Below are positions 10,445 through 23,982 of a DNA stretch of 64,000 nt, piece after piece. Origin of the DNA: Pareuzebyella sediminis (lineage in GTDB: Bacteria; Bacteroidota; Bacteroidia; Flavobacteriales; Flavobacteriaceae); the NCBI RefSeq assembly GCF_008367235.1, contig NZ_VTZS01000002.1:434001-498000 (forward strand), in the 5' to 3' direction. The first letter of the stretch is position 1; each line of letters opens with the position of its first letter. The notes under the pieces were generated by a model. The model did no database searches. It saw only the letters and a list, made by a program, of their open reading frames with translations, and was not told the DNA's origin. A program made the position numbers and the translations under genes.

Positions 10445-11725
10445 TTAAAGCGCCCCATCCATTTTCTTTCGGATCTCATCGAGACATAAATTGCCCAAAC
10501 TGCCTTCATGGGAATGTTGAATATCACGTTTAGGGGTAAAGGTGCCCTGCTGAATTTCCTGTCCCATTTTTTTATAGGCATCCCGAAAAGGCATCCCGTT
10601 CTGTACCAGCTCGTTGAGTGTATCGACACTGAAAAGATAATCGTATTTCGGATCGTCCAAAACATTGGGATTAACGCGGATTTCCTTCAAACTAAAGGTC
10701 ATTATCTCTAAACAAGCCTTCATATCTTGAATTGCGGGAACAATAATTTCTTTTACCAGTTGCAGGTCACGATGATAGCCACTCGGTAGGTTGTTGATAA
10801 CCAACGTCAATTGTTGGGGCACGGCCTGAAGTTTATTGCATTTACCTCGTACCAGTTCAAAGACATCGGGGTTCTTTTTATGGGGCATAATGCTACTTCC
10901 CGTGGTAAGTTCATCCGGAAAGGAAACAAAATCAAAGTTTTGGCTCATGTACAAGCAGATATCCATGGCCATCTTCGATAAGGAAGCTGCAATATTAGCC
11001 AGACCGAAGGCTGCTGCTTTTTCTACTTTGCCCCTTCCCATCTGGGCTGCAACGACATTATATTTCAAGGTTTCAAAACCCATTTCCTTGGTCGTAAAGG
11101 TACGGTCTATATCGAACGAACTACCATAACCGGCGGCACTACCCAAAGGGTTTTGGTCTGCCACTTTGTAGGCCGCATTGAGAAAATAGACGTCATCGAC
11201 CAAGCTTTCCGCATAAGCCGAGAACCAAAGTCCGAACGAGGACGGCATTGCAATCTGCAAATGGGTATAGCCAGGTAAAAGAATGTCTTTGTATTTCTCG
11301 GCCTGTTGTAATAATAGGTCGAATAAAGTCTTGGTTTGTTGCTTTATTTCCGAAAGCTCGGCCTTGAGGTATAAATGCATCGCGACCAGAACTTGGTCGT
11401 TCCTGGATCGGGCCGTATGTATTTTCTTTCCGGTATCCCCTAATTTTTCGGTGAGTAAGTATTCGATTTTCGAGTGCATATCTTCGAAGGAATCTTCGAT
11501 CGTAAATTTCCCGTTCGCGATGGTCGATGCAATATGGTCCAGTTCTTTCGTCAAGGCGAGTGTTTCTTCTTTGCTCAGAAGGCCAATTCTACCAAGCATT
11601 TTGGCATGGGCCTTCGAGGCGATAACATCGTACTTGGCAAGGATGAGATCCAATTCCCTGTCGTCGCCAACTGTAAAATGGTCTATTTTCGTGTCTGTAC
11701 TGAAGCCTTTGTCCCAGAGTTTCAT
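10445..11725 (-). CDS. argH: Argininosuccinate lyase
   Basis: Cleaves argininosuccinate to arginine and fumarate, the last step of arginine synthesis. The 426-residue protein carries the fumarase/lyase superfamily signature GSSIMPHKKNPD around residues 275-286, with the flexible catalytic Ser, and HTARSRNDQV near residue 103. It is shorter than the roughly 460 residues of the E. coli enzyme, mainly at the C-terminus. It is the last gene of the twelve-gene arginine/proline operon, 59 bases after argE. The 10270-10444 region downstream holds a weak 6-bp hairpin but no clear terminator. Confidence 0.93.
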   Translation of the reverse strand: MKLWDKGFSTDTKIDHFTVGDDRELDLILAKYDVIASKAHAKMLGRIGLLSKEETLALTKELDHIASTIANGKFTIEDSFEDMHSKIEYLLTEKLGDTGKKIHTARSRNDQVLVAMHLYLKAELSEIKQQTKTLFDLLLQQAEKYKDILLPGYTHLQIAMPSSFGLWFSAYAESLVDDVYFLNAAYKVADQNPLGSAAGYGSSFDIDRTFTTKEMGFETLKYNVVAAQMGRGKVEKAAAFGLANIAASLSKMAMDICLYMSQNFDFVSFPDELTTGSSIMPHKKNPDVFELVRGKCNKLQAVPQQLTLVINNLPSGYHRDLQLVKEIIVPAIQDMKACLEIMTFSLKEIRVNPNVLDDPKYDYLFSVDTLNELVQNGMPFRDAYKKMGQEIQQGTFTPKRDIQHSHEGSLGNLCLDEIRKKMDGAL

Positions 11726-11784
11726 AGGTGTCGATTTTCTTTTTTAGGTACAAAGAAGTATGGCCACTTCGGTACCGTTAGATT

Positions 11785-12846
11785 TTATAAAAATTTTTCC
11801 AATATTTTAATATACAAGTCTATACCATCCTCTATTTCCTGTACATAAATAAACTCATCGGCCGAATGGGACCGGGTACTATCGCCAGGTCCCAATTTAA
11901 GGGATTGACATTGTAGGGCCGCTTGGTCGGAAAGTGTCGGGGAGCCATAAGTTTTTCTACCTAGGGCCACTCCCGATTTCACTAGGGGGTGGTCTTTGGC
12001 AATCGACGAAGAGTTCAGGCGTAAGGAGCGCTCTTTCAATTCACAAGGGGCTTCCCTTTTTAATATTTCTGCAATTTCGGCATTGGTATACTTGTCGGTC
12101 ACACGAACATCGATAACAAGATCTACCTGTGCAGGTACAACATTATGTTGGCTTCCGGCATTTATCTGGGTTACCGTTAATTTAACCTCGCCAAGCGCAT
12201 CGGAAACTTTGTCGAATTTGTAGTTCTTGAACCACTCTAACACTTCAATGCTGTTATAAATGGCATTGTTAAGGTTGGGATGTGCAGCATGGGAAGGTGT
12301 ACCCTTTACAACAGCATCAAAAACAATAAGTCCTTTTTCGGCAATTGCCAAATCGAGCAGAGTAGGTTCCCCTACAATGGCCACATCTATTTTAGGAAGC
12401 TTCGGAAGCAACCCCCTTAGGCTATTTGCACCCGCACTTTCCTCTTCCATGGAGGCAACCATGAGAATATTATGGCTGGGATTTTTCCGGGCATAGAAAT
12501 AGGTAAAGGCCGCGATCAACGAAACCAGGGCGCCCCCTGCATCATTACTGCCCAGACCATATAATTTACCATCTTCGATATGGGGATGAAACGGATCTTT
12601 AGTGTAGGCCGAATTCGGCTTTACGGTATCATGATGGGAATTGAGTAGGAGGGTGGGCTTGCTTTCATCAAAGTATTTGTTTACCGCATATACATTGTTG
12701 ATATGTCTTTGAAAAGGAATGTTAAAAGCTTTGAACCAATCTTCGATGGCGTCGGCGGTTTTATCTTCTTCAGACGAAAATGAGGGAATTGAAATAAGGG
12801 TTTTTAACAATTCCAAGGATTTTTCGGTAAGCTGTTCTTGATCCAT
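11785..12846 (-). CDS. argE: M20-family deacylase of arginine synthesis (ArgE-like)
   Basis: Removes the N-acyl group from N-acetyl- or N-succinyl-citrulline/ornithine. The M20 metal ligands are visible: NSHHDTV (His, Asp), GLGSNDAGG (Asp), MASMEEESAG (catalytic Glu and ligand Glu) and a late His. The ATG at 12846 (MDQEQLTEKSL) is chosen because earlier in-frame codons overlap argB and encode no family sequence; it gives 353 residues and a 2-base gap to argB. Because the operon uses an ArgF'-type transcarbamylase, the natural substrate is probably N-acyl-citrulline rather than ornithine. Confidence 0.88.
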   Translation of the reverse strand: MDQEQLTEKSLELLKTLISIPSFSSEEDKTADAIEDWFKAFNIPFQRHINNVYAVNKYFDESKPTLLLNSHHDTVKPNSAYTKDPFHPHIEDGKLYGLGSNDAGGALVSLIAAFTYFYARKNPSHNILMVASMEEESAGANSLRGLLPKLPKIDVAIVGEPTLLDLAIAEKGLIVFDAVVKGTPSHAAHPNLNNAIYNSIEVLEWFKNYKFDKVSDALGEVKLTVTQINAGSQHNVVPAQVDLVIDVRVTDKYTNAEIAEILKREAPCELKERSLRLNSSSIAKDHPLVKSGVALGRKTYGSPTLSDQAALQCQSLKLGPGDSTRSHSADEFIYVQEIEDGIDLYIKILEKFL

Positions 12847-12848
12847 TC

Positions 12849-13640
12849 TTATAAGGTTATAGTAGTGTAGGGGGATGCATTTTCTTCGAGCATGGAAATA
12901 TGTCCTATGCAAACTTTGGTCACGCGGTGACGTAGGGCATGAAAGCAGTTTGTTAGTTTTGGAAGCATACCATCGGCAATGATACCTTGGTTCAAAAGAT
13001 CAGTATAAATTTTACTATCAATGTATTCGATGACCGAATCTTCATCGGTAACATCCATCAAAACTCCCTTTTTTTCAAAACAGAAATAGAGAGTAGTATC
13101 GTAAAGTTCACTCAGGCCAATCGCTACTTCAGAAGCAATGGTGTCGGCATTGGTATTTAACAACTGCCCTTTACCATCATGGGTGAGCGCACAAAAAACA
13201 GGAACCAACCCAAGAGTCAATAAATGGGAGAGCAAACCTTCATTGATGCCGTCAACATCACCTGCAAAACCGTAATCGATCTCATTGACCGGTCTTTTAT
13301 GGGCTTGTATGGTATCTCCATCGGCTCCACTCAAACCTATGGCGTTGCAGCCATTGGCTTGAAGCCGAGCCACTATGTTCTTATTCGTTAGGCCGCCATA
13401 AACCATGGTAATTACATCGAGGCTTTCGGCATCTGTGATGCGCCTTCCTCCGACCATTTTCGGTTCGATTCCGAGCCGTTGCAGTACCTGGGTCGCAAGT
13501 TTTCCTCCGCCATGGACCAAGATTTTTGGGTCTTCTACTTTTGAGAAATAGTGTAAGAACCTTTCGAGCTCTGTTTCGTTCTCGATTACATTACCTCCAA
13601 TTTTTACTATGGATAAGGATCGCTTCATTCGTTTATGCAT
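12849..13640 (-). CDS. argB: Acetylglutamate kinase
   Basis: Phosphorylates N-acylglutamate, the second step of arginine synthesis. Amino-acid kinase motifs are clear: SIVKIGGNVI with the catalytic Lys, ILVHGGGKLATQV, and GLSGADGDTI for substrate binding. An in-frame ATG at 13628 (MKRSLSIVKIGG) is an equally good start that avoids overlap with the SDR gene upstream. The length of about 260 residues is typical. In Bacteroidota the pathway may run on succinylated rather than acetylated intermediates; this cannot be decided here. Confidence 0.92.
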   Translation of the reverse strand: MHKRMKRSLSIVKIGGNVIENETELERFLHYFSKVEDPKILVHGGGKLATQVLQRLGIEPKMVGGRRITDAESLDVITMVYGGLTNKNIVARLQANGCNAIGLSGADGDTIQAHKRPVNEIDYGFAGDVDGINEGLLSHLLTLGLVPVFCALTHDGKGQLLNTNADTIASEVAIGLSELYDTTLYFCFEKKGVLMDVTDEDSVIEYIDSKIYTDLLNQGIIADGMLPKLTNCFHALRHRVTKVCIGHISMLEENASPYTTITL

Positions 13641-14382
13641 TTATAATTCCACCATCAATGGTCACCGCGGTACCCGTCATCCAACTAGCTTCTTCCGAGA
13701 CCAGGAATAGCGCTAGTTTAGCAATATCCAATGGAGTTCCCAAGCGTTTCATAAGCGTAGCGTCGCTGGCATCTTGAAGCGCGGATTCTGGATTTTTAAA
13801 GGCTTTTGCCGAACGCTGTAATAAGGGAGTGTCGACAGGCCCCGGGCAGATGGCGTTCACCCTTATTTTTGGCCCGTACTCCACAGCCATTTGTTTCATA
13901 AGGGCCAACGAAGCGGATTTTGATGCGCAGTAGGCCGGATGGTTCGGAAAACTTTTAAAAGCTGCAATTGATGCATTGATGAGCATATTGCCTTCACTCT
14001 TTTGAAGATAAGGAATTGCATATTTCGAGATATAGAAAATAGCACTAAGATTTGTGTCCAACGTTTTGTGCCATTTTTCAATAGGTAGTGAAATTACATT
14101 ACCTAGCCCTAAAATACCCGCGTTCAAGGACAGGATATCGATACCGCCGAAGGATCGAATCGCCTCTTCGACCAATAATTCATTATATTGTGGCGTGCTC
14201 ACATCACCTGGTAGGAATATGGCTTCACCAAATTGGTCAGTCAAGGCTTTGCCTCGATCCCTATTCCTTCCGGACAAGACCAATTTTGCACCCTCCTTCG
14301 AAAAAATTTCAGCAATGGCCTTTCCCATTCCACTGGTAGCCCCGGTAACAATGCAAACTTTGTTCTCTAGTTTTCCAGCCAT
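13633..14382 (-). CDS. SDR-family oxidoreductase within the arginine operon
   Basis: Classical short-chain dehydrogenase/reductase of 249 residues. It has the NAD(P) motif VTGATSGMGKAIA at residues about 12-24, NAGILG, the catalytic Ser (NASIAAF), and YCASK with the Tyr-Lys pair at about residues 151-155. The C-terminal SWMTGTAVTIDGG is typical. The gene sits tightly between argF' (4-base gap) and argB (about 8-base overlap), so it is cotranscribed with arginine genes although no arginine step needs an SDR. The substrate is unknown; it may be a passenger or act on an acylated intermediate. Confidence 0.88.
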   Translation of the reverse strand: MAGKLENKVCIVTGATSGMGKAIAEIFSKEGAKLVLSGRNRDRGKALTDQFGEAIFLPGDVSTPQYNELLVEEAIRSFGGIDILSLNAGILGLGNVISLPIEKWHKTLDTNLSAIFYISKYAIPYLQKSEGNMLINASIAAFKSFPNHPAYCASKSASLALMKQMAVEYGPKIRVNAICPGPVDTPLLQRSAKAFKNPESALQDASDATLMKRLGTPLDIAKLALFLVSEEASWMTGTAVTIDGGIINA

Positions 14383-14386
14383 GCTC

Positions 14387-15325
14387 TTATAGGGTTTCCA
14401 ATATCTTTTTTAATACAATCTGTGCAGAATACGTTCTATTGTTGGCCTGTTCTATTACCAGTGACTGCCCACCATCAAGTATGGCATCTTCGACCACCAC
14501 ATTTCTTCGCACGGGAAGGCAATGCATAAACTTGGCATTTCCCAATTTTTCTTCGGTCATCATCCAATGGCTATCTTGAGTTGTGACTTTTCCGTAATCC
14601 GTATAGTTACTCCAATTTTTGACATACACGAAATCGGCATCTTTGCATGCTTTTGTTTGATCGTATTCTATCTTAGAATCCCTGGTAATTTTTGGATTCA
14701 GTTCATACCCTTTGGGATGGGTGATCACAAAATCGACTTCTTGTCGGTGCATCATCTCAACGAAAGAGTTCGCCACTGCATGTGGCAAAGCTTTGGGGTG
14801 TGGAGCCCAAGACAACACCACTTTGGGTTTCGTTTTTTTATTGTTTTCAGCAAGGGTAATAGCGTCGGCCAAGGCCTGTAACGGGTGGCCGGTTGAGCTT
14901 TCCATATTTACGATCGGTACGGTAGCGTACTTTCTAAACCCCTGCAGGACCAGTTCGGCCTCATCTTTTTCTCTATCTTCTAATTCGGCGAACGCACGAA
15001 TGGCGACGATATCACAATATTGCGAGACGACCTGGGCCGCTTCTTTGATATGTTCCGATGTGCCTTGGTTCATGATAGTGCCATCTCCGAATTCAATGGC
15101 CCAGCCCTCACTGCCAAAGTTCATGACCATGATGTCCATACCTAAATTCATGGCGGCTTTTTGGGTGCTTAAACGGGTGCGAAGGCTGTTGTTGAAAAAC
15201 AACAGTCCTAAAGTTTTATTTTTTCCTAATGATTTGTGCTGTAGTGGATTTTTCTTTATTTCCTTGGCTTCTTCCACCCAAGTGGAAAGAGAGTCGATGT
15301 CTTGTATGGAAAGATATTGTTTCAT
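14387..15325 (-). CDS. argF': N-acyl-L-ornithine transcarbamylase (ArgF' type)
   Basis: Transfers a carbamoyl group to N-acetyl- or N-succinyl-ornithine rather than to free ornithine. The 312-residue protein has the carbamoyl-phosphate loop as FNNSLRTRLS (STRT-like position), HPLQALADA, and the C-terminal HCLPVRRNVVVEDAILD. Its family is the knotted Bacteroides/Xanthomonas type: EFGDGTIMNQGTSEHIKEAAQV follows the pattern of the succinyl/acetyl loop. Which acyl group is used depends on a few loop residues that I cannot assign with confidence. It fits a linear N-acyl pathway with ArgE-like deacylation later in the same operon. Confidence 0.9.
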   Translation of the reverse strand: MKQYLSIQDIDSLSTWVEEAKEIKKNPLQHKSLGKNKTLGLLFFNNSLRTRLSTQKAAMNLGMDIMVMNFGSEGWAIEFGDGTIMNQGTSEHIKEAAQVVSQYCDIVAIRAFAELEDREKDEAELVLQGFRKYATVPIVNMESSTGHPLQALADAITLAENNKKTKPKVVLSWAPHPKALPHAVANSFVEMMHRQEVDFVITHPKGYELNPKITRDSKIEYDQTKACKDADFVYVKNWSNYTDYGKVTTQDSHWMMTEEKLGNAKFMHCLPVRRNVVVEDAILDGGQSLVIEQANNRTYSAQIVLKKILETL

Positions 15326-15377
15326 TTTAAGGATTTCAAGTTAATTCTTTTGGTTATAAAAGTTTAGCGGGTCGTTT

Positions 15378-16160
15378 TTACATTTTTTTGGGATCCAAAA
15401 GTGATGTAATCTTAGTCTTCTGACTTTTATTTTCTAAGGCATCAATAATAAAGTTATCGGAAAGCCCATTGACGATCCAAGTTTCGATCTGCGCTTTTTG
15501 TGCAATAAGGGCCGCTTCAATTTTTGATTGCATGCCTCCCGTACCATGCGATGATTTAGAAATGCTTATTTCTTTTTGTAAACTATGTATGCCGATTACT
15601 TCTGGTATGGTTTCGGGGTGTCCACTTTCTAAGGAGGCCTTCGTGTAGATACCGTTGGTATTGGTAGCGATAATTAGAAGGTCGACCTTTAGTAGGCAGG
15701 CGGTCAATGCAGCGAGCTTGTCATTATCTCCGAACTGTATCTCGTCGGCAGCTACCGTATCATTTTCATTAATAATCGGAATTACGTTGTTCGAGACCAG
15801 TATGTCAATAGTGTTTTTGATGTTGGACTTGGCTTTTGGATTTTCAAAATCTGAATAAGACAAAAGACATTGGGCCGTAAAGAGACCTAATTCCCTAAAA
15901 TTTTCCTGAATGATTCGCATTAAGTGGGGTTGACCTATTGCTGCTAAGGCTTGTTTAACATTGATTTCACCTCCATTATGTTCAAGTTTAACAAACTGCT
16001 TGGCCGCGGCGATCGCACCGGAACTCACAATGATAAACTCATATTCATTTCCGAGTTTAGCAATCTGTCGCGCAATGTCCTCTATTTTCCCCCTGGAAAT
16101 TTGATCCGTTTCCTTGGTCAGGGTATTGGAACCTATTTTTAACAACACACGTTTTTTCAT
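15378..16160 (-). CDS. proB: Glutamate 5-kinase without PUA domain
   Basis: Phosphorylates glutamate, the first step of proline synthesis. Amino-acid-kinase motifs are present: VLLKIGSNTLTK, IIVSSGAIAAAKQ, PIINENDTVAADEIQFGDNDKLAA and SHGTGGMQSKIEAALIAQ. The protein stops after the kinase domain at 260 residues; many family members, such as that of E. coli (367 residues), add a C-terminal PUA domain. It is followed by argF' after 52 bases and preceded by proA. Proline feedback inhibition maps to the kinase domain in known enzymes, so regulation could be retained. Confidence 0.92.
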   Translation of the reverse strand: MKKRVLLKIGSNTLTKETDQISRGKIEDIARQIAKLGNEYEFIIVSSGAIAAAKQFVKLEHNGGEINVKQALAAIGQPHLMRIIQENFRELGLFTAQCLLSYSDFENPKAKSNIKNTIDILVSNNVIPIINENDTVAADEIQFGDNDKLAALTACLLKVDLLIIATNTNGIYTKASLESGHPETIPEVIGIHSLQKEISISKSSHGTGGMQSKIEAALIAQKAQIETWIVNGLSDNFIIDALENKSQKTKITSLLDPKKM

Positions 16161-16231
16161 AATTCTCTTTCAAGTTATTGCTAGGTCAGAGCAATAAGAT
16201 ATTCCTTTCATCACTTTCCAGTGCCCTACAA

Positions 16232-17431
16232 TTAAGGCCGAATTTGCCCCGTACCTTCAACATACCATTTATTGGTGACTAAATGCTGCAAACCGATGGG
16301 ACCTCTTTGGTGCAGCTTATCCGTACTAATAGCTAGTTCACCGCCCAATCCGAATTGGCCCCCATCGGTAAATCGTGTCGATACATTATGATAAACCGCC
16401 GCACAATCTACGCCATTCATAAAGTAGGATGCGGTTTTTGAATTTTTGGTCACAATCGATGCGGAATGTCCTCCACTGTATTTATTGATTTTGGCAATCG
16501 CTGCTTCAACACCGTCAACTAGGCCGAGTACAATTTTATAATCTAAAAATTCCTCGTACCAAATTTCTTCGTTTGCAATAGGTGTTGTCCCTTCGAGCCC
16601 CTTTATATGATCATCGACGAAAATTTTGACTCCGTACTTCTTCAATTCTTGGGTCAATTGCCGGATAAACTGTTGCTTTTCAGGTAAGTCCGACGCTATA
16701 ATAACTTTATCCAAGGCGTTACAAGCCGAAATTTTCGTAGTCTTGGCATTCTTGATGATATCCATGGCTATTTGCAGATCGGCCTCATGGTCAACGTATA
16801 CAAAATTATTACCGCGACCACTCACAATAACGGGGCAGGTCGCATGCTCTTTTACAAAAGCAATCAGTCGCTCCCCGCCCCTTGGTACGATCAAGTCTAT
16901 TTTTTCTGTAGGATGCTCCAAAAAGGCCTGGGTCTCTTTGCGATTGAATTGTAAGTAGGTGACCCAGTCAAAAGATGCTCCGTGTTCGCCTAAAGCATCA
17001 TGCCATAATTTCAGTAACACTAGGTTGGAGTTGAGCGATTCCTTACCTCCCTTCAGCAATATTTTGTTACCTGATTTAAAAGCGATGCCTGCGGCCTCGA
17101 TGGTGACATCGGGCCTTGACTCATAAATAATCATTACAGTGCCGAAAGGTGCGGTTTTATTGCTTACCCGCATACCGTTTTCGTGGGTGAATTTAAACCG
17201 TTCTTTCCCTAAAGGATCTTCTTGGCTGGCCAGTTCTTGAAGGGATCGTACCATGCCGGCTATTTTATCGTCGTCAACTTTCAGACGGTCTCTCATGGCG
17301 ATGTCTTCTCCTACGTAGGTTTCGATATCAATTGCATTCGCATCCGAAATGGCCTTACGTTCCTTTTGTAGTAGACGGGCCATAGTCTTAAGAACGGCAT
17401 TTCGTTTTTGTATGTCTAAAAATGCCTTCAT
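16232..17431 (-). CDS. proA: Gamma-glutamyl phosphate reductase
   Basis: Reduces glutamyl-5-phosphate to glutamate semialdehyde with NADPH, the second proline step. The 399-residue aldehyde-dehydrogenase-fold protein has PFGTVMIIYESRPDVT, ILLKGGKES, and ISACNALDKVIIA with the catalytic Cys. FTDGGQFGLGGELAISTDKLHQRGPIGL is the family C-terminal signature. The start codon overlaps the argD stop by 4 bases, indicating translational coupling. It makes a natural pair with proB downstream. Confidence 0.95.
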   Translation of the reverse strand: MKAFLDIQKRNAVLKTMARLLQKERKAISDANAIDIETYVGEDIAMRDRLKVDDDKIAGMVRSLQELASQEDPLGKERFKFTHENGMRVSNKTAPFGTVMIIYESRPDVTIEAAGIAFKSGNKILLKGGKESLNSNLVLLKLWHDALGEHGASFDWVTYLQFNRKETQAFLEHPTEKIDLIVPRGGERLIAFVKEHATCPVIVSGRGNNFVYVDHEADLQIAMDIIKNAKTTKISACNALDKVIIASDLPEKQQFIRQLTQELKKYGVKIFVDDHIKGLEGTTPIANEEIWYEEFLDYKIVLGLVDGVEAAIAKINKYSGGHSASIVTKNSKTASYFMNGVDCAAVYHNVSTRFTDGGQFGLGGELAISTDKLHQRGPIGLQHLVTNKWYVEGTGQIRP

Positions 17432-18555
17432 TGGAGCTCTTTTTTTAAGGCTGAGAAAAAAGTATCCAGATCATTTTCCGTGATATTCAAGGCGGGGAGC
17501 ACTCGCAATACAAAGGGGTCTTTAGCCCCGCCGGTAAATAAATGTTGATTGTAGATCAGGCGCTTCCGTAAATCCGCTACTTCAAAATCAAATACTAGGC
17601 CGAGCATAAGACCTCGACCTTTCACTTTTTTAACTTGGGAAATTTCTGCGGCAAGGCCCCTAACATAGCCTTCTAAGCGCGCCGCATTGGCCAGTAGTCG
17701 TTCTTCTTCCAATACTTCCAAAACCGCAAGAGTAGCTACACAGGCTAAATGATTGCCACCAAATGTGGTGCCTAAAAGGCCATAAGAAGCTTTGATATCG
17801 CTATGTATTAGCACTCCTCCCACGGGAAACCCATTGCCCATACCCTTGGCCATCGTAATAATGTCGGGTTGTATCCGGTGATGCTGAAAACCGAAAAACT
17901 TGCCCGTTCTACCGAAGCCGGACTGTACTTCGTCTGCAATGAGCACTACCCCGTACTCTTTACAAAGAGAGGCTATTTTTTGATAAAATGTTGTAGAAGG
18001 CTCGTCTAGACCGCCAACACCTTGGATGGCTTCTAGAATTACGCAGCATACGTCGTTCTTCTCGATTTCTTCCTGAAAAGCTTCTACGTCGTTGAAGGGT
18101 ACGAAGGTCACCTTCTGTTGCTGATTGATAGGAGCATTAATTTTAGGGTTATCTGTGGCAGCAACGGCAGCGGAGGTCCGCCCGTGAAAACTATTCTTAA
18201 AAGCGATGACTCTCGCCTTTCCTGTATGGAAAGAAGCCATTTTAAGGGCATTTTCATTGGCTTCCGCACCGGAATTGCACATAAATAGATTGTAGTTATC
18301 GCAATCCGATATCTTTCCGAGTTTGGACGCCAGTTCTTCTTGTAAAGGATTTTTGACCGAATTGCTATAGAATCCGATACGATCCAATTGATCTTTTAAT
18401 CGTTTGACATAATACGGATGTGAGTGTCCAATGGAAATCACAGCGTGACCTCCATAAAAATCTAGGTAATTTTGTCCTTGGTCATCAGTTACCACAATCC
18501 CTTTTGCGGAAACTGGGGTTACATTGTACAGTGGATATACATCAAATAATTCCAT
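17428..18555 (-). CDS. argD: Acylornithine aminotransferase
   Basis: Pyridoxal-phosphate aminotransferase that converts N-acylglutamate semialdehyde to N-acylornithine. Visible motifs are GGHAVISIGHSHPYYV, MCNSGAEANENALKMA, NSFHGRT, LIADEVQSGFGRTG and ITMAKGMGNGFPVGG with the Schiff-base Lys. It is 375 residues, slightly short for the family. Lying between proC and proA, it could also act on glutamate semialdehyde, but operon context favours arginine synthesis. Confidence 0.92.
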   Translation of the reverse strand: MELFDVYPLYNVTPVSAKGIVVTDDQGQNYLDFYGGHAVISIGHSHPYYVKRLKDQLDRIGFYSNSVKNPLQEELASKLGKISDCDNYNLFMCNSGAEANENALKMASFHTGKARVIAFKNSFHGRTSAAVAATDNPKINAPINQQQKVTFVPFNDVEAFQEEIEKNDVCCVILEAIQGVGGLDEPSTTFYQKIASLCKEYGVVLIADEVQSGFGRTGKFFGFQHHRIQPDIITMAKGMGNGFPVGGVLIHSDIKASYGLLGTTFGGNHLACVATLAVLEVLEEERLLANAARLEGYVRGLAAEISQVKKVKGRGLMLGLVFDFEVADLRKRLIYNQHLFTGGAKDPFVLRVLPALNITENDLDTFFSALKKELQ

Positions 18556-18678
18556 TCGATATTCTTTTAATTTCGTGGTAAGGAATACATTCCTTTGGTT
18601 TTAGCGGTTGTTCCATTTTATAAATGGGCCTTTGCTTGCTTTTTACAGAATGAACCGATTAACATTTAGTACGTATGG

Positions 18679-19479
18679 CTATAATTGGCCCTCCTTAATT
18701 TGACTTATCTTCTCATAAGAGGCTACGATACCTTGAATCAGTGAAGAACTTAAGCCTTGGTGCTCCATTTCGTTAAGGCCTTGAATGGTACAACCTTTTG
18801 GGGTCGTTACCTTATCGATTTCAGCTTCTGGATGACTTCCTGATTCAATAAGCAAATTTGCGGCGCCATTGCATGTGTGCATGGCCAATTCCTGTGCTTC
18901 CTTAGCATCAAATCCAAGCTGGATGGCCCCTTGCGTGGTGGCACGTATCAAACGCATCCAAAAGGCAACTCCACTGGCACAAATGACCGTGGCCGCCTGC
19001 ATTTGTTGTTCAGGTATCTCCATAGAATGGCCCATACGGTTGAAAATTGCCTTGGCCAAGGCAATCTTTTTTTTGCCTTTATCATTACTACAAATACAGG
19101 TCATCGATTGCCCCACTGAAATGGCAGTATTCGGCATGCTTCGAATAATATTCCGTTCAGGCCCTATCAAAGCCTCCATTTTGGCAATACTAAAACCGGT
19201 AATTGTCGAAATGATCACGTGATTGTCCGTGAGCAAATCTTTAATATCCCTCAAAATGTCGTGAAGCTGGCTCGGTTGTACCGCAAAAATCAGTATATCC
19301 GAATTTTTTACCGCTTCGCGGTTATCGGAGGTTATGGTAACATTGCCGTATTTTTCAAATTGCTCAATGTCCGAGGTGTTACGCTTGGTCAAATACATGG
19401 AGGTGGCTCCATTGGAGTTCAAAATACCTTTGGCAATGGAGACTCCTAAATTTCCTGCACCGATAATCGCTATTTTCAT
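18679..19479 (-). CDS. proC: Pyrroline-5-carboxylate reductase
   Basis: Reduces pyrroline-5-carboxylate to proline, completing the proline branch. The Rossmann motif IAIIGAGNLGVSIAKG opens the 266-residue protein. IIRSMPNTAISVGQSMTCI and the C-terminal KVTTPKGCTIQGLNEME match the P5CR signatures. It stands between argC (71-base gap) and argD (123-base gap), the widest gap inside the operon. I see no promoter box or terminator in that gap. Confidence 0.94.
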   Translation of the reverse strand: MKIAIIGAGNLGVSIAKGILNSNGATSMYLTKRNTSDIEQFEKYGNVTITSDNREAVKNSDILIFAVQPSQLHDILRDIKDLLTDNHVIISTITGFSIAKMEALIGPERNIIRSMPNTAISVGQSMTCICSNDKGKKKIALAKAIFNRMGHSMEIPEQQMQAATVICASGVAFWMRLIRATTQGAIQLGFDAKEAQELAMHTCNGAANLLIESGSHPEAEIDKVTTPKGCTIQGLNEMEHQGLSSSLIQGIVASYEKISQIKEGQL

Positions 19480-19550
19480 TCTCTTCTATTTATGTCTTTT
19501 TCCTGGGTTTGGAAATCATAACAAGTAAGGTCGACGCCTTATTTCAAATT

Positions 19551-20525
19551 TTAAAAAACTCCTGCCTTTAGCAAGAGGCCTAGGCTTTCATTCATTCCAA
19601 ACATCAAATTCATGTTTTGTACGGCTTGTCCGGATGCTCCTTTCAACAAATTGTCAATAGCTGAAGTTACCAATAGGGTCTCTTCATGTTTGTACAAATG
19701 AATATGGCATTGATTGGTATTAACTACTTGTTTAAGGTGAATAGGTTCTTGGGATATCTGGGTGAAAGGCGCATTGGCATAAAAACTTTGATACAAATCA
19801 ACAGCCTCGTTCAGGCCGCCTTCGAAAGCCGTATAGGCAGTGGCAAAGATACCCCGTGTAAAATTACCGCGATTTGGAAGAAAATGTAAGGTTCCCGAAT
19901 CGGTTTGTAACGATTTTAGACTTTCATTGATTTCACCCAAATGTTGGTGCGTAAACGGCTTGTACCAACTCACGTTATTGTTTCGCCAGCTAAAATGAGA
20001 GGTCGCCGATAAGCTGACCCCGGCACCCGTACTTCCGGTAACGGCGTTCACATGAACATCGTTTGCTAGAAGTTTGGCAGCGGCCAAGGGAAGTAGGGCC
20101 AATTGAATGGCCGTTGCGAAACAGCCCGGATTCGCCACATAATTTGCTTTGGTAATTTTCGTTTTGTTCAGTTCAGGCAATCCGTAGACGAACTCCTTAT
20201 GTTCAAAAACTGAATCTTTTTTTAATCGAAAGTCGTTGCTTAGGTCGATGATTTTCGTGTTCTTCGAAAACCGATTTTCCTGTAAAAATTTGGAGGAATT
20301 ACCATGACCTAGACAAAGAAAAACGACGTCAACCTCAGGATTTGACTTTCCTGTAAAGGCGATATCTGTAACACCCATCAGATCGGCATGGGCAGTACTC
20401 ACTTTTTTGCCAGCCTTTGTCGTGCTGTACACAAAGTCGATGGCGGTCTGCGGATGCTGTAGTAAGATTCGAATAAGCTCGCCTCCTGTATAACCCGAAC
20501 CCCCTATGATGCCCGCCTTAACCAT
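19551..20525 (-). CDS. argC: N-acetyl-gamma-glutamyl-phosphate reductase
   Basis: NADPH-dependent reduction of N-acylglutamyl phosphate to the semialdehyde. The 324-residue protein starts KAGIIGGSGYTGGELIRIL, has VVFLCLGHG, and the catalytic Cys in YVANPGCFATAIQLAL at about residue 134. TGSTGAGVSLSATSHFS and PNRGNFTRGI follow as expected for the family. The start overlaps the argG stop by 8 bases, consistent with coupled translation. Confidence 0.94.
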   Translation of the reverse strand: MVKAGIIGGSGYTGGELIRILLQHPQTAIDFVYSTTKAGKKVSTAHADLMGVTDIAFTGKSNPEVDVVFLCLGHGNSSKFLQENRFSKNTKIIDLSNDFRLKKDSVFEHKEFVYGLPELNKTKITKANYVANPGCFATAIQLALLPLAAAKLLANDVHVNAVTGSTGAGVSLSATSHFSWRNNNVSWYKPFTHQHLGEINESLKSLQTDSGTLHFLPNRGNFTRGIFATAYTAFEGGLNEAVDLYQSFYANAPFTQISQEPIHLKQVVNTNQCHIHLYKHEETLLVTSAIDNLLKGASGQAVQNMNLMFGMNESLGLLLKAGVF

Positions 20526-21708
20526 GTTTTTTGTTTACGTGGTTATAAATTTTACCTGGGTTGGATAGTATTTTGATAAAACCTTTGGCATCATCAGCAG
20601 TCCAACCCTTGTTCATTTCGCCGTAGCTTCCAAAAGAAGCGTTCATTAGATCATGTTCTGAAGAAATTCCGTCCAAGGTAAATTGAAATGGGTTCAAACT
20701 GACGAAAACCTCGCCCGAAACGTTTTTCTGGGTATCTGTTAAAAAAGCTTCGATATTGCGCATAACTTCATCGAGATAATTGCCTTCATGTAAAAGCATG
20801 CCATAAAAATTGCCCAGCTGTTCTTTTTGAAACTGTTGCCACTTGCTAAGGGTATGTTTTTCGAGGAGGTGATGTGCCTTTATAATTATTAAAGATGCCG
20901 GGGCCTCGAAACCTACTCGACCTTTGATGCCAATAATGGTGTCACCCACATGAATGTCTCGGCCAATGGCGTATTTTGAAGCTAGTGCATCCAGCTTGAT
21001 TATATTATTAACAGGCGAATCTTTTGCGCCGTTTATGGCAACGATTTCTCCTTGCTCAAAGGTCAAACTCACTTTTGAGGGCTCTTTTTTTTGTAGTTGA
21101 CTGGGATATGCCGAATCGGGTAAAGCCTTTTCGGATGTCAAGGTTTCTTCCCCTCCTACAGAAGTTCCCCATAGACCGCGATTGATAGAATATTTGGCCT
21201 TTTCCCAAGAATAATCTACTCCGTTTTGTTTTAGATACTCGATTTCGGCTTCTCGCGACAGTTTGTTGTCCCTAATGGGGGTGATAATTTCGATTTCTGG
21301 TGCAATGATCTGAAATATCATATCGAACCTTACCTGATCGTTACCAGCTCCAGTGCTACCATGAGCAATACTCTCCGCTCCGATTTTTTTGGCATATTCG
21401 ATGATTTCCAAGGCCTGTACTATTCGTTCCGCACTTACCGAGAGCGGATAGGTGTTATTTTTCAGCACATTCCCAAAAATTAGGTATTTTACTACCTTGT
21501 CGTAGAAGGTCTGCACGGCATCGATCGAGGTATACGAGCTAGCCCCCAATTGCAAGGCTTTTTCCTTTATGGTGGCAATTTCTTCCTTTGAAAAACCGCC
21601 TGTATTCACACTTACGGCATGGACCTCAAAACCTTTTTCCTTTGATAAATATTTGGCGCAATACGAGGTGTCTAGACCACCACTATAAGCTAGTACTAAT
21701 TTTTTCAT
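20518..21708 (-). CDS. argG: Argininosuccinate synthase
   Basis: Joins citrulline and aspartate using ATP. The 396-residue protein begins KLVLAYSGGLDTSYCAKYL, the PP-loop ATP pyrophosphatase motif. IAHGSTGAGNDQVRFDMIF is the citrulline/aspartate-binding family signature, and EYLKQNGVDYSWEKAKYSINRGLWG follows. It is the second gene of the operon, 65 bases after the GNAT gene, and overlaps argC. Its pathway step is late, so its position near the front is not in reaction order. Confidence 0.95.
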   Translation of the reverse strand: MKKLVLAYSGGLDTSYCAKYLSKEKGFEVHAVSVNTGGFSKEEIATIKEKALQLGASSYTSIDAVQTFYDKVVKYLIFGNVLKNNTYPLSVSAERIVQALEIIEYAKKIGAESIAHGSTGAGNDQVRFDMIFQIIAPEIEIITPIRDNKLSREAEIEYLKQNGVDYSWEKAKYSINRGLWGTSVGGEETLTSEKALPDSAYPSQLQKKEPSKVSLTFEQGEIVAINGAKDSPVNNIIKLDALASKYAIGRDIHVGDTIIGIKGRVGFEAPASLIIIKAHHLLEKHTLSKWQQFQKEQLGNFYGMLLHEGNYLDEVMRNIEAFLTDTQKNVSGEVFVSLNPFQFTLDGISSEHDLMNASFGSYGEMNKGWTADDAKGFIKILSNPGKIYNHVNKKHG

Positions 21709-21773: not shown

Positions 21774-22400
21774 TTATTTATCCTTTTTTTTGAGAAATAG
21801 ACTCTCTTTAATGCTTTTCAGACGTTTAAAGGCGGTACTGTTGACTTCATGTTTTGCTTTCTTTGCATTTTTCTCTTTCGCTTCCGGGTCGTACAGCATA
21901 CCCGTGCACAAACACATTTTTTGTTCGGTACGCGTGAGAATATCAAAGTTCTTGCAGGTTTGGCAGCCTTTCCAAAATTCAGGATCGTTGGTGAGTTCTG
22001 AAAACGTCACTGGTTTGTAACCGAGCTCATAGTTCATTTTCATTACGGCCAATCCTGTGGTAATACCGAATATCTTGGCATCGGGAAATTTTTCCCGTGA
22101 AAGCTCGAAAATTCTTTTTTTGATTTGTTTGGCAAGCCCTTGGTTCCGATAGTCAGGATGTACAATAAGTCCTGAATTGGCCACAAAATCTTTGTTGCCC
22201 CATACCTCGATATAGCAGAACCCTGCAAACTTATCTCCGTCTAAGGCAATTACAGCGTTACCGTTCTGCAATCTTTTTTGAATATACTCCGGAGTACGCT
22301 TAGCGATTCCCGTTCCCCGAATTTTTGCTGATTCCGATATGGTTTCGGCAATTATTGGGGCATATTTAAAATGTGATTCGTTAGCAATTAATATTTTCAT
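21774..22400 (-). CDS. GNAT-family acyltransferase, candidate N-acylglutamate synthase
   Basis: First gene of the arginine/proline operon. The GNAT acyl-CoA loop is clear: SGLIVHPDYRNQGLAKQIKK around residues 76-95. After it comes a Cys-rich segment with C146, C149, C163 and C165 (CX2C, 13 residues, CXC), which could bind a metal, then a Lys-rich tail. The ATG at 22400 is preferred over a TTG six bases earlier, giving 208 residues. No argA or argJ is in the operon, and something must acylate glutamate first, so this is the obvious candidate. Whether it uses acetyl- or succinyl-CoA, or does this step at all, is inference. Confidence 0.85.
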   Translation of the reverse strand: MKILIANESHFKYAPIIAETISESAKIRGTGIAKRTPEYIQKRLQNGNAVIALDGDKFAGFCYIEVWGNKDFVANSGLIVHPDYRNQGLAKQIKKRIFELSREKFPDAKIFGITTGLAVMKMNYELGYKPVTFSELTNDPEFWKGCQTCKNFDILTRTEQKMCLCTGMLYDPEAKEKNAKKAKHEVNSTAFKRLKSIKESLFLKKKDK

Positions 22401-22580
22401 TGCCAATGTTGATTGAATTTAAATGGTAAAAAATTAAGGGTTGTTCTTTAAGAAGGGAAATGGACTCACCTATTTCCATGAAATATGCATCACCCTTACG
22501 GGCGGCGAGAAGAAAACGGACGAGCCGGGGCGATTACGCCCAATGTTACTAATATGTGCTTTTGTCCTTTCATGGAAAAT
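22401..22580 (-). ncRNA. Structured 5' leader of the arginine/proline operon (candidate riboregulator)
   Basis: From the predicted transcription start near 22575-22579 to the GNAT start codon runs a leader of about 175 nt. Its first bases (22568-22578) and an internal segment (22473-22483) form a perfect 11-bp inverted repeat, TTTCCATGAAA with TTTCATGGAAA, 84 bases apart. Between them lie two compact hairpins in RNA sense: GGGCG-UAAU-CGCCC and CCC-GUAA-GGG. A competing hairpin (arms 22456-22463 and 22469-22477, one bulge) uses the same bases as the 3' side of the long-range stem. Mutually exclusive stems of this kind are typical of riboswitches and attenuators. No U-tract follows, so control of translation is more likely than termination. 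I do not recognise a known RNA family. Confidence 0.5.
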
Positions 22581-22610
22581 CAAATGTACAAGATTACATC
22601 GAAATTACAA
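22581..22610 (-). promoter_or_regulatory. Promoter of the arginine/proline operon
   Basis: On the minus strand TTG (22608-22610) and TACATTTG (22581-22588) are separated by exactly 19 bases, matching the Bacteroidota housekeeping consensus TTG-N19-TAnnTTTG. The -33 element is only about 10 bases from the stop codon of the upstream glycosyltransferase gene. Confidence 0.8.
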
Positions 22611-22620
22611 CACAACAGGT

Positions 22621-23982
22621 CTAATTTTTTCGAAAAATTGGTTTTTGCTTCATTTGATTAAAAATTTCATACGCGATAAACCCATATACGCAGATATATT
22701 CAAAGGCCAAGAGCATTAGGTTTTCCTTGAAATCCACTTTAGAATACGCGTAGTAGCTTAATACCACTGCAGCCGACCATACAATAGCAAATCGATACTC
22801 CGTAAATATGGTAAGGATAACCAAGAAAATAATGTACCAAGGGTGAACGGTTGCCGATAGCATATAATATGTGGTCAGAATAAGGAGCATCGAAGAAATT
22901 AATACAGAAAGTTTCTGGTTTTCGCGAAAAATAGTAGTTATCAGAATAATGAGAACAATAACAATCTGGGTAATCGTACCATGGGTTTTGATTAGCTTCC
23001 AGGGTTTGACATCGAATTGTATTGCAATATGTTTTATGCCATTGTAAAGCCCCGCATTAAATTCAAAATTAGAAAACCAGAGTCCGACCGTTTTAGTATA
23101 GTTTGTCAAAAATTCCGGAGAATAGAATGGTAAAAAGAGCAAGAGGCAGCTTATCCCTACAATTAAATAAAAAATCAGACTTTTTTTAAGACCAAAATAT
23201 TTGAAAAAGAGGGGCAGAAATAAGAGTGGTACTAACTTTACTGCTATGGAAAGGGCGTAGGGCAGTGCAGCAAGAGCCCATTTCTTAATAGAAAGTAAAT
23301 AAAGCGACCACACAAAAAAGAAGAGCATGACCCCTTCAAAATGAAGGTTTCCAGTAAGCTCTATTATTACCAAAGGGTTCAGGAAGTACCAAAAAATAAG
23401 ATGCGGCGAACGGTTCAGGTTTTTCAGCAACTTGCGTCCGAAATAGACGATACCTAAATCGCAAAGAATGATGATACTTCGCATAACGACTACTTGTGCT
23501 AGAATACTCTTGCCTCCCAATAGAGCGGCAAAGGCAAAAAGAAATTGATGTAGGGGCGGGTAATTACTGAAGTGTTTCGCACTGAGACTTCCCATGCCTT
23601 GGTAGAGCTCTTGGGCGTTAGGTATAAAAAGGTCTTCTTGAGCTATTAGTTCATTTGGCGTAGCCAAATAAGGGTTGACAAAATGGCTCACCAACTGCCC
23701 GTCCCAAATAAAACGATAGAAGTCTTGTGAAAGATTGGGTTCGGTCAATAAGAAGATTATCCGAAAAAGTAGCCCAACAACAACTAAAAATTTTAGGTTC
23801 CATTTTTCAAACTGAATCAGTTTAAAGCACAGAAAAAACAATCCTGCGAAAAGGGTCAAGAGCTTGATAAAGTCCTTCCGCTCTAAGTGATGGGAAAAGG
23901 TATAGTACAAGATTAGACAAAGTATGGTCAATATAATGGGTACTTTGTGCAGCTTCCAGTACGTACTGAGTTGGTTGGACAT
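22621..23982 (-). CDS. Polytopic GT-C-type glycosyltransferase
   Basis: Hydrophobic protein with about eleven to twelve membrane segments, resembling polyprenyl-phosphate-sugar-dependent mannosyltransferases (GT87-like). The first periplasmic loop holds NLSQDFYRFIWDGQLVSHFVNPYL, the usual place for the catalytic Asp in this fold. The ATG at 23982 (MSNQLSTYWKL, 453 residues) is preferred over an upstream TTG, because the membrane domain starts shortly after it. It is the last gene of a three-glycosyltransferase run, 90 bases after the processive GT2 gene. Donor and acceptor are unknown. Confidence 0.8.
   Translation of the reverse strand: MSNQLSTYWKLHKVPIILTILCLILYYTFSHHLERKDFIKLLTLFAGLFFLCFKLIQFEKWNLKFLVVVGLLFRIIFLLTEPNLSQDFYRFIWDGQLVSHFVNPYLATPNELIAQEDLFIPNAQELYQGMGSLSAKHFSNYPPLHQFLFAFAALLGGKSILAQVVVMRSIIILCDLGIVYFGRKLLKNLNRSPHLIFWYFLNPLVIIELTGNLHFEGVMLFFFVWSLYLLSIKKWALAALPYALSIAVKLVPLLFLPLFFKYFGLKKSLIFYLIVGISCLLLFLPFYSPEFLTNYTKTVGLWFSNFEFNAGLYNGIKHIAIQFDVKPWKLIKTHGTITQIVIVLIILITTIFRENQKLSVLISSMLLILTTYYMLSATVHPWYIIFLVILTIFTEYRFAIVWSAAVVLSYYAYSKVDFKENLMLLAFEYICVYGFIAYEIFNQMKQKPIFRKN

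Follow-up and report, generated by a model that had tools for sequence, protein, structure and literature searches.

The window, i.e., the whole analyzed stretch of 64,000 nucleotides from Pareuzebyella sediminis, contains on its minus strand an operon that, judged by its gene content, makes arginine and proline; a leader precedes the first gene, which encodes a GNAT N-acetyltransferase (Table 1). Operon genes from argG to position 14387 were named by NCBIfam, and the other coordinates come from open reading frames (ORFs); the SDR gene, argB, argE, and argH were named from ORF translations and used as tblastn queries.

Table 1. Features of the leader and the operon in the window (hp, hairpin).
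Feature	Position	Strand	Remarks
Promoter, Bacteroidota type	22581–22610	-	TTG 22610–22608, N19, TACATTTG 22588–22581 (-7 box); sequence
Predicted transcription start	~22578–22576	-	Inferred from promoter
Leader ORF, 25 codons	22496–22573	-	MKGQKHILVTLGVIAPARPFSSRRP, then stop; start codon ~4 nt from predicted RNA 5' end
Outer stem, 5' arm GGAC	22564–22567	-	Pairs with GUCC 22521–22518, encloses hp0; minimum free energy and U1–U5 window covariation
hp0, GGGCG-UAAU-CGCCC	22528–22541	-	Within leader ORF; covariation
Candidate sensor codons CGC CGC CCG (Arg-Arg-Pro)	22499–22507	-	Immediately 5' of stop; sequence
Further Arg-Pro, CGT CCG	22522–22517	-	Leader ORF; sequence
hp1, CGCCC-GUAA-GGGUG	22491–22504	-	UAA is the leader ORF stop codon
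Linker hp1–hp2, 13 nt	22478–22490	-	
hp2, GGAAAU-A-GG-UGAGU-CC-AUUUCC	22456–22477	-	8-bp stem, bulged A, tip GGUGNGUCC
G-poor spacer, hp2 to first gene	22401–22455	-	No U-run after hp2 here
GNAT N-acetyltransferase, first gene	21774–22400	-	Start ATG 22400; Pfam Acetyltransf_1
Remaining operon	10445–21708	-	argG, argC, proC, argD, proA, proB, argF (N-acetylornithine carbamoyltransferase type), SDR, argB, argE, argH

An earlier note on this DNA had described a promoter TTG-N19-TACATTTG with a start near 22577; the promoter is present, and the start agrees with the predicted one. The two inner hairpins of that note (hp0 and the inner part of hp1) and its competing hairpin (hp2) are likewise found in the sequence and are conserved in relatives. 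The 105-nt domain folds at −34.3 kcal/mol, the mean for its shuffles being −24.15 kcal/mol (z −2.89; equaled by 2 of 200 shuffles), and folding of the whole 174-nt leader is weakly above chance (z −1.85; 11 of 200). The RNA 5' end (22578–22568) is, as had been noticed, exactly complementary to TTTCATGGAAA (22473–22483), making a stem of 11 bp for a start at 22578, or of 10 bp for a start at 22577. No described RNA family had been recognized at the locus, and none of the 4227 models of Rfam release 15 reaches its gathering cut-off on the leader or on 20 relative loci. What had been overlooked is the leader ORF, which occupies most of the supposed aptamer and whose UAA stop codon forms part of the GUAA loop that joins CCC to GGG in the window sequence.

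The core of the element comprises Arg codons, the stop-codon hairpin hp1, a short linker, and hp2 tipped with GGUGNGUCC. A DNA search of 99 genomes yielded 19 matching genomes, the genome of the window included, and 18 of them carry the core motif (a low-complexity match, L019, was dropped). The covariance model built from these 18 cores (R1) matches 237 of 397 Flavobacteriaceae genomes at E ≤ 0.1, at least one of which (G292) is a chance match. In a sample of the phylum, R1 matches 20 of 395 genomes, 15 in the family and five outside it at E 0.02–0.1; the latter have neither the GNAT gene nor the tip and were taken as chance. A broader model (R2, 100 loci) matches 45 of 395 genomes in a sample of the order: 34 belong to the family, with E of at most 4.4e-9, and 11 to other families, with best E from 0.0013 to 0.05, again taken as chance. 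The element is confined to Flavobacteriaceae, as far as sampled, and there is no match in the phages collection. Weak second matches in eight genomes were considered as possible elements before other operons and rejected; the six that were fetched (L212–L217) have neither the GNAT gene nor the tip. The absence of the GNAT gene was assessed in a non-random set of 30 genomes (20 listed R1 non-matches in the family and ten from the phylum-sample list); among the 20, it is absent (E 1e-10) in 17. By eye, two of the other three have diverged copies of the element (L218, L222), and the third a more distant look-alike (L229). Another copy judged by eye as diverged (L220, in G213) was later matched by R2.

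Downstream of the element, a GNAT homologue is found in 177 of 191 loci (L027–L217). The 14 loci without it are L071–L075, L212–L217, L209, L035, and L128; L035 and L128 are genuine leaders preceding argG, GNAT being missing there, and L209 is a chance match without the arg operon, yet counted among the 237. Setting aside L144 (a match of 28.8% at a distance of 286 nt) and L210 (tip not found) leaves 175 loci, of which 172 have CGCCC; removal of duplicates gives 171, 169, or 166, depending on the analysis. For L099 and L117, at contig ends, match positions were set by hand. The distance from the hp2 tip to the first-gene start has a median of 64 nt and is 54–79 nt in 162 of 175 loci. To check the operon, stretches of about 12 kb were fetched from 12 genomes, 11 of them R1 matches. 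The arg operon is present in ten of these 11 relatives, and the genes found keep the same order; GNAT, proC, proA/B, or SDR are absent from some of the ten, and in two of them, L254 and L255, which lack GNAT, the leader stands before argG. The eleventh (L256, the same locus as L209) is the chance match in G292. The twelfth stretch (L261, genus g152) has another leader, with the operon present.

The leader ORF ends at its own stop before the first gene (175 loci). Its last ten codons contain on average 3.93 Arg codons in the peptide frame, vs. 0.50 and 0.18 in the other two frames (175 loci), and in 159 of 172 loci the last CGC is preceded by another Arg codon. The stop directly follows CGC CCN in 156 of 175 loci and lies up to 27 nt further downstream in 19. 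A mutual-information scan of 169 loci finds a period-3 coupling between the first and second positions of codons. Arg makes up 28.8% and Pro 17.2% of residues in the last 14 codons, one Arg and one Pro per locus being fixed by the CGCCC anchor (Arg at position 0, Pro at +1) and hence not independent evidence. The usual peptide end is RRP-stop, and the peptide body is variable, the shortest peptide by first ATG being MRRKFPRRP. Strong preference is seen for CGU and CGC, which account for 91% of 519 Arg codons in leader tails (172 loci), vs. 24% of 1310 Arg codons in the GNAT genes of 168 of the same loci, where AGA is the commonest (41%). The bias suggests sensing of one tRNA-Arg species, or else a constraint of RNA structure. 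Because Arg codons are concentrated in one frame, the coupling has period 3, and 91% of the Arg codons are CGU/CGC, the conservation in the supposed aptamer is codon-like; on this pattern of codon use, the leader ORF is selected for CGU/CGC Arg codons just before a Pro codon and the stop in hp1. A programmed frameshift at CCG UAA was rejected, because the length of the linker, and hence the downstream frame, varies.

By their upstream layout, the 172 loci fall into three classes. In class A (52 loci), TAnnTTTG is followed within 2–12 nt by the in-frame start codon of the same ORF, at exactly 7 nt in 35 loci, as in the window. In class B (57 loci), a second Arg-rich ORF lies upstream, with its stop 128–149 nt before the CGCCC anchor; the class B scan on the reverse strand gives four matches in 172 loci. 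The remaining 63 loci (class "other") match neither scan. The upstream ORF of the class B tandems (e.g., L028, L043, L061) is of the MKNLKNKIRC..RRRF type and keeps a nearly fixed distance, and its first codons pair with a downstream U-rich strand (0 of 2000 permutations as good; 59 loci, including at least one of class A, L059).

Both downstream hairpins were assessed on an alignment of 100 loci, chosen from the 191 with divergent ones favored and five extra matches left out. Changes on both sides occur in nine of 12 pairs (two in hp1, seven in hp2), amounting to 97 such cells; none of 500 shuffles reaches the observed values on all five measures, and slid controls are far lower, although the alignment came from fitting the loci to the model, and relatedness is not preserved by the shuffles. 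In hp2, the eight pairs are formed in 90–100% of cells and seven of them show changes on both sides; U–G is seen in 28 and 29 of 100 sequences at two pairs, and G–U in ten at another. The hp2 tip is GGTGNGTCC in 170 of 175 loci, and the base after its last C is A in 111, G in 59, and T in five, i.e., mostly GUCCR. In hp1, 99.5% of cells are paired, with a change on both sides at two of four pairs, in one sequence each; apart from these few changes, on which the case for its pairing depends, hp1 hardly varies, and covariation cannot reveal other partners of its bases. The linker (counted after GGGY to 9 nt before the tip GG) measures 10–14 nt throughout the 166 distinct loci retained; the count admitted only 8–20 nt and dropped duplicates and loci without GGGY. 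A pseudoknot of CGCC with the GGUG tip was considered; both sides are near-invariant, and by eye the divergent copies L101 and L229 lose one of them.

A counterpart of hp0 is observed 18–62 nt upstream of the CGCCC anchor, with a native energy of −5.82 kcal/mol vs. −3.56 kcal/mol for permuted partners (matched by 0 of 5000 permutations, both over the 171 loci together and within each class); controls with shifted windows give z +3.3, −2.9 (14 of 5000), and +2.4. In the narrower windows U3–U4, z is −10.8 in class B, −5.8 in class "other", and, more weakly, −2.0 in class A (49 of 2000). The outer stem GGAC/GUCC falls in windows U1–U5, which covary in two of the three classes: three of 2000 permutations are as good in class A and none of 2000 in class "other" (z −3.2 and −4.0), vs. 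519 of 2000 in class B (z −0.6). A covariation of H1b with K (z −6.0) was disregarded, as these windows overlap.

The Arg codons at the end of the ORF, the stop codon in a hairpin loop, and the further hairpin downstream point to ribosome-mediated attenuation: with a probability that we put at about 0.85, translation of the leader ORF controls the operon by arginine supply. The signal would be charged tRNA-Arg and, perhaps, tRNA-Pro. When charged tRNA-Arg that reads CGU/CGC is scarce, the ribosome would stall on the Arg codons, keep hp1 open, and shield the leader, and the operon would be expressed; when arginine is plentiful, the ribosome would reach the stop and leave, hp0, hp1, and hp2 would form on naked RNA, and these hairpins on the ribosome-free leader would reduce operon expression. 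The Pro codon at the end may make the leader responsive to proline as well, or may delay release at the stop. The proposal of the earlier note that the arginine/proline operon has a structured leader acting in cis as a regulator is supported, and arginine (possibly proline) is borne out as the likely signal. If the proposal is right, the whole operon would be under arginine-sensing control in a large bacterial family in which ArgR (PF01316, E 0.001) was detected in none of the 20 genomes examined (one of them of genus g152).

A reading in which hp2 acts on its own, as a palindromic DNA operator or as the site of a dedicated RNA-binding protein, with the leader ORF incidental, would account for the conservation of the tip GGUGNGUCC, which goes far beyond the needs of pairing; hairpins with a bulged A, such as hp2, often bind proteins. 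We nevertheless consider it quite unlikely: the common G–U pairs fit RNA rather than a DNA palindrome, the leader ORF is clearly under selection, and AGGTGNGTCC occurs at seven places of the genome, only one of which is the leader, with no sign of a regulon.

How the position of the ribosome would be read is a separate question, and here the arg leader departs from the textbook attenuator, in that the terminator is mostly missing. In the 20-nt window at the hp2 end, no T run exceeds 4 in 162 of 175 loci, and 13 loci have one of 5–7; a stretch 24–37 nt past the tip is T-rich (about 45–63% T, 175 loci), and G makes up 6.4% of the spacer region of relatives. In contrast, the his leaders of the sampled genomes have a hairpin and T-run terminator in 19 of 19 cases, 18 of these genomes carrying the arg element as well, and this contrast within the same genomes makes the question of what reads ribosome position directly testable. 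The 19 hisG leaders (L232–L250) encode peptides like MRNQNTHHHFYYCAQAR, behind which lies a CCCGTTTGAG...CAAACGGG-T-run terminator; near the stop, CUCAAGCG is, by eye, complementary to CGUUUGAG of the terminator, as in a textbook antiterminator. The his leaders were considered as copies of the arg element and are of another type.

Leaders of the trp and his type carry the stop codon in the penultimate hairpin, and a variant of the leader-peptide model in which hp2 is a weak intrinsic terminator, with hp1 and the linker, or hp0, as antiterminator, would agree with the classical leader ORF, with the same placement of its stop codon, with the 13 loci that have a T run of 5–7, and with the windows of the hp0 arm and the hp2 arm that score in class "other". 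The short T runs in the other 162 loci, set against the his terminators, make this variant improbable, as does the lack of a family-wide alternative pairing. The hairpin formed by the linker and an hp2 arm is convincing by eye in many sequences, yet 1227 of 5000 permutations do as well as the native pairing and thus give it no support. The mutual-information scan, which spans the columns from 27 nt before the anchor to 34 nt beyond the tip, places in hp2 those high-scoring pairs of distant columns that are complementary. No mutually exclusive pairing is seen family-wide by the linker permutation and mutual information, nor by windows in classes A and B. Class "other" differs, windows of the hp0 arm and the hp2 arm scoring there (U3–H2a, 0 of 2000 permutations; U4–H2a, 2 of 2000); U3–H2a has z −4.5 over the pooled loci and is absent within classes A and B. 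An alternative pairing of the hp0 arm with the hp2 arm may thus exist in class "other".

As a U-run rarely follows hp2, the likeliest outputs of the proposed ribosome-mediated control are Rho-dependent termination or mRNA decay. Rho (PF07497) is present in all 20 genomes examined, one of them of genus g152, and 166 of 172 leader ORF bodies contain more C than G (C/G 1.66, vs. 1.09 in his leader ORFs); this bias is only suggestive of a Rho site and may be caused by codon content. Rho-dependent termination in the ribosome-free, C-over-G leader, similar to that of tna, is the output we favor, at somewhat less than even odds. Decay of the mRNA, by analogy with Salmonella speF, comes next but is rather unlikely, to the same degree as a protein or a polymerase pause acting at hp2, and an output of some other kind would be surprising. 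We also propose, with more doubt than confidence, that hp1 and hp2 at their near-fixed spacing may form a two-hairpin module that reads ribosome position without a terminator/antiterminator swap, via a factor or a polymerase pause recognizing the near-invariant CGCCCGUAAGGGU and GGUGNGUCC.

The leader of the E. coli tna operon, with its Rho-based output and the Pro-stop end of TnaC, resembles the arg leader in the peptide end and in the output proposed here. TnaC stalls the ribosome with tryptophan via the nascent chain, and SpeFL does so with ornithine. Another variant of the leader-peptide model, with a nascent Arg-Arg-Pro at the stop stalling the ribosome on free arginine or ornithine, would fit the usual RRP-stop end, its Pro before the stop recalling TnaC. 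It appears no more probable than the classical terminator variant: TnaC senses free tryptophan by its nascent chain, whereas the arg leader has a variable chain and conserved Arg codons, the body of the peptide shrinks down to MRRKFPRRP, probably too short for an exit-tunnel sensor, and the CGU/CGC bias points to the codon, not the residue.

The earlier note had interpreted the 5'-end complementarity as the closing stem of a ligand-controlled switch, mutually exclusive with hp2, and had named compensatory changes in the stem and hairpins as a test. For the hairpins such changes are found, hp0 and hp2 covarying; for the 11-bp stem there are none. Among 52 loci with the same promoter layout, native pairing of the 5' end with the linker/arm region (−5.38) is hardly distinct from the permuted one (−5.37; 2360 of 5000 permutations as good), a strong stem of this type (−12.0 to −14.4 kcal/mol) being seen in six loci, the window included; as a conserved switch helix, the stem was rejected, and its exclusive relation to hp2 is not conserved. 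A riboswitch that binds arginine, ornithine, proline, or another metabolite and alternates between the 11-bp closed domain and hp2 would explain the good folding of the 105-nt domain, the several conserved hairpins, and the almost invariant core of CGCCCGUAAGGGU with GGUGNGUCC, but it is highly improbable, as no conserved aptamer beyond coding is found: the domain is mostly an ORF, with one frame rich in Arg codons and with period-3 coupling, the peptide body is variable, and the closing stem is not kept.

Several described systems resemble the arg leader. In passages on Salmonella speF, pausing at two consecutive Arg codons of an upstream ORF is described as setting mRNA decay, and translation of this ORF as interfering with Rho (PMC6386406). 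On that description, the speF leader (orf34; RF00518) shares with the arg leader a short upstream ORF with consecutive Arg codons, and pausing there alters RNA fate, with Rho and an RNase involved (PMC6386406); it differs in the controlled gene (ornithine decarboxylase) and in its conserved DUF2618 peptide, as opposed to the variable peptide body of the arg leader. The RF00518 model scores 11 bits (gathering 37) on the window, at 22579–22660, upstream of the leader ORF. The Corynebacterium ilvB-II motif, according to passages of PMC11109978, was a riboswitch candidate at first and was later shown to be a regulatory upstream ORF; this history of a conserved leader is similar, but ilvB-II has terminator and antiterminator sequences (PMC11109978), which are not seen family-wide in the arg leader. 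The GUCCY-hairpin, listed for Bacteroidetes and Proteobacteria (Weinberg 2010, PMC2864571), was compared by name alone, the hp2 tip being mostly GUCCR.

Leader-peptide attenuation in Flavobacteriaceae is known in outline: passages of PMC9723704 speak of "strong clues" for it in front of amino-acid operons and list the hisG and pheA 5' elements as conserved in the family, and the arg operon is not named in these passages. The his leaders resemble the arg leader in having a His-rich leader peptide before the his operon, and differ in their intrinsic terminators, in place of which the arg leader carries hp1/hp2, seldom with a U-run. Among titles and opening lines of abstracts in the literature within reach, no description of the arg leader was found, and the element has no Rfam match.

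Genus g152 has no match to R2 among the 19 genomes listed, and a different conserved short ORF precedes GNAT in seven of the eight g152 genomes examined. The arg leader of this genus (L219, L221, L223–L227) has a conserved peptide MNKISLHITSLSRTNSPITSPEVRTLSL and its variants, two CGG codons, and other hairpins, and apparently is an independent solution. Upstream of GNAT in L229 lies a diverged leader with MSFRFDFRRRLLA and with CGCC-UUUU-GGCG in the manner of hp1; its downstream hairpin lacks the GGUGNGUCC tip, and this leader could show which parts of the element are dispensable.
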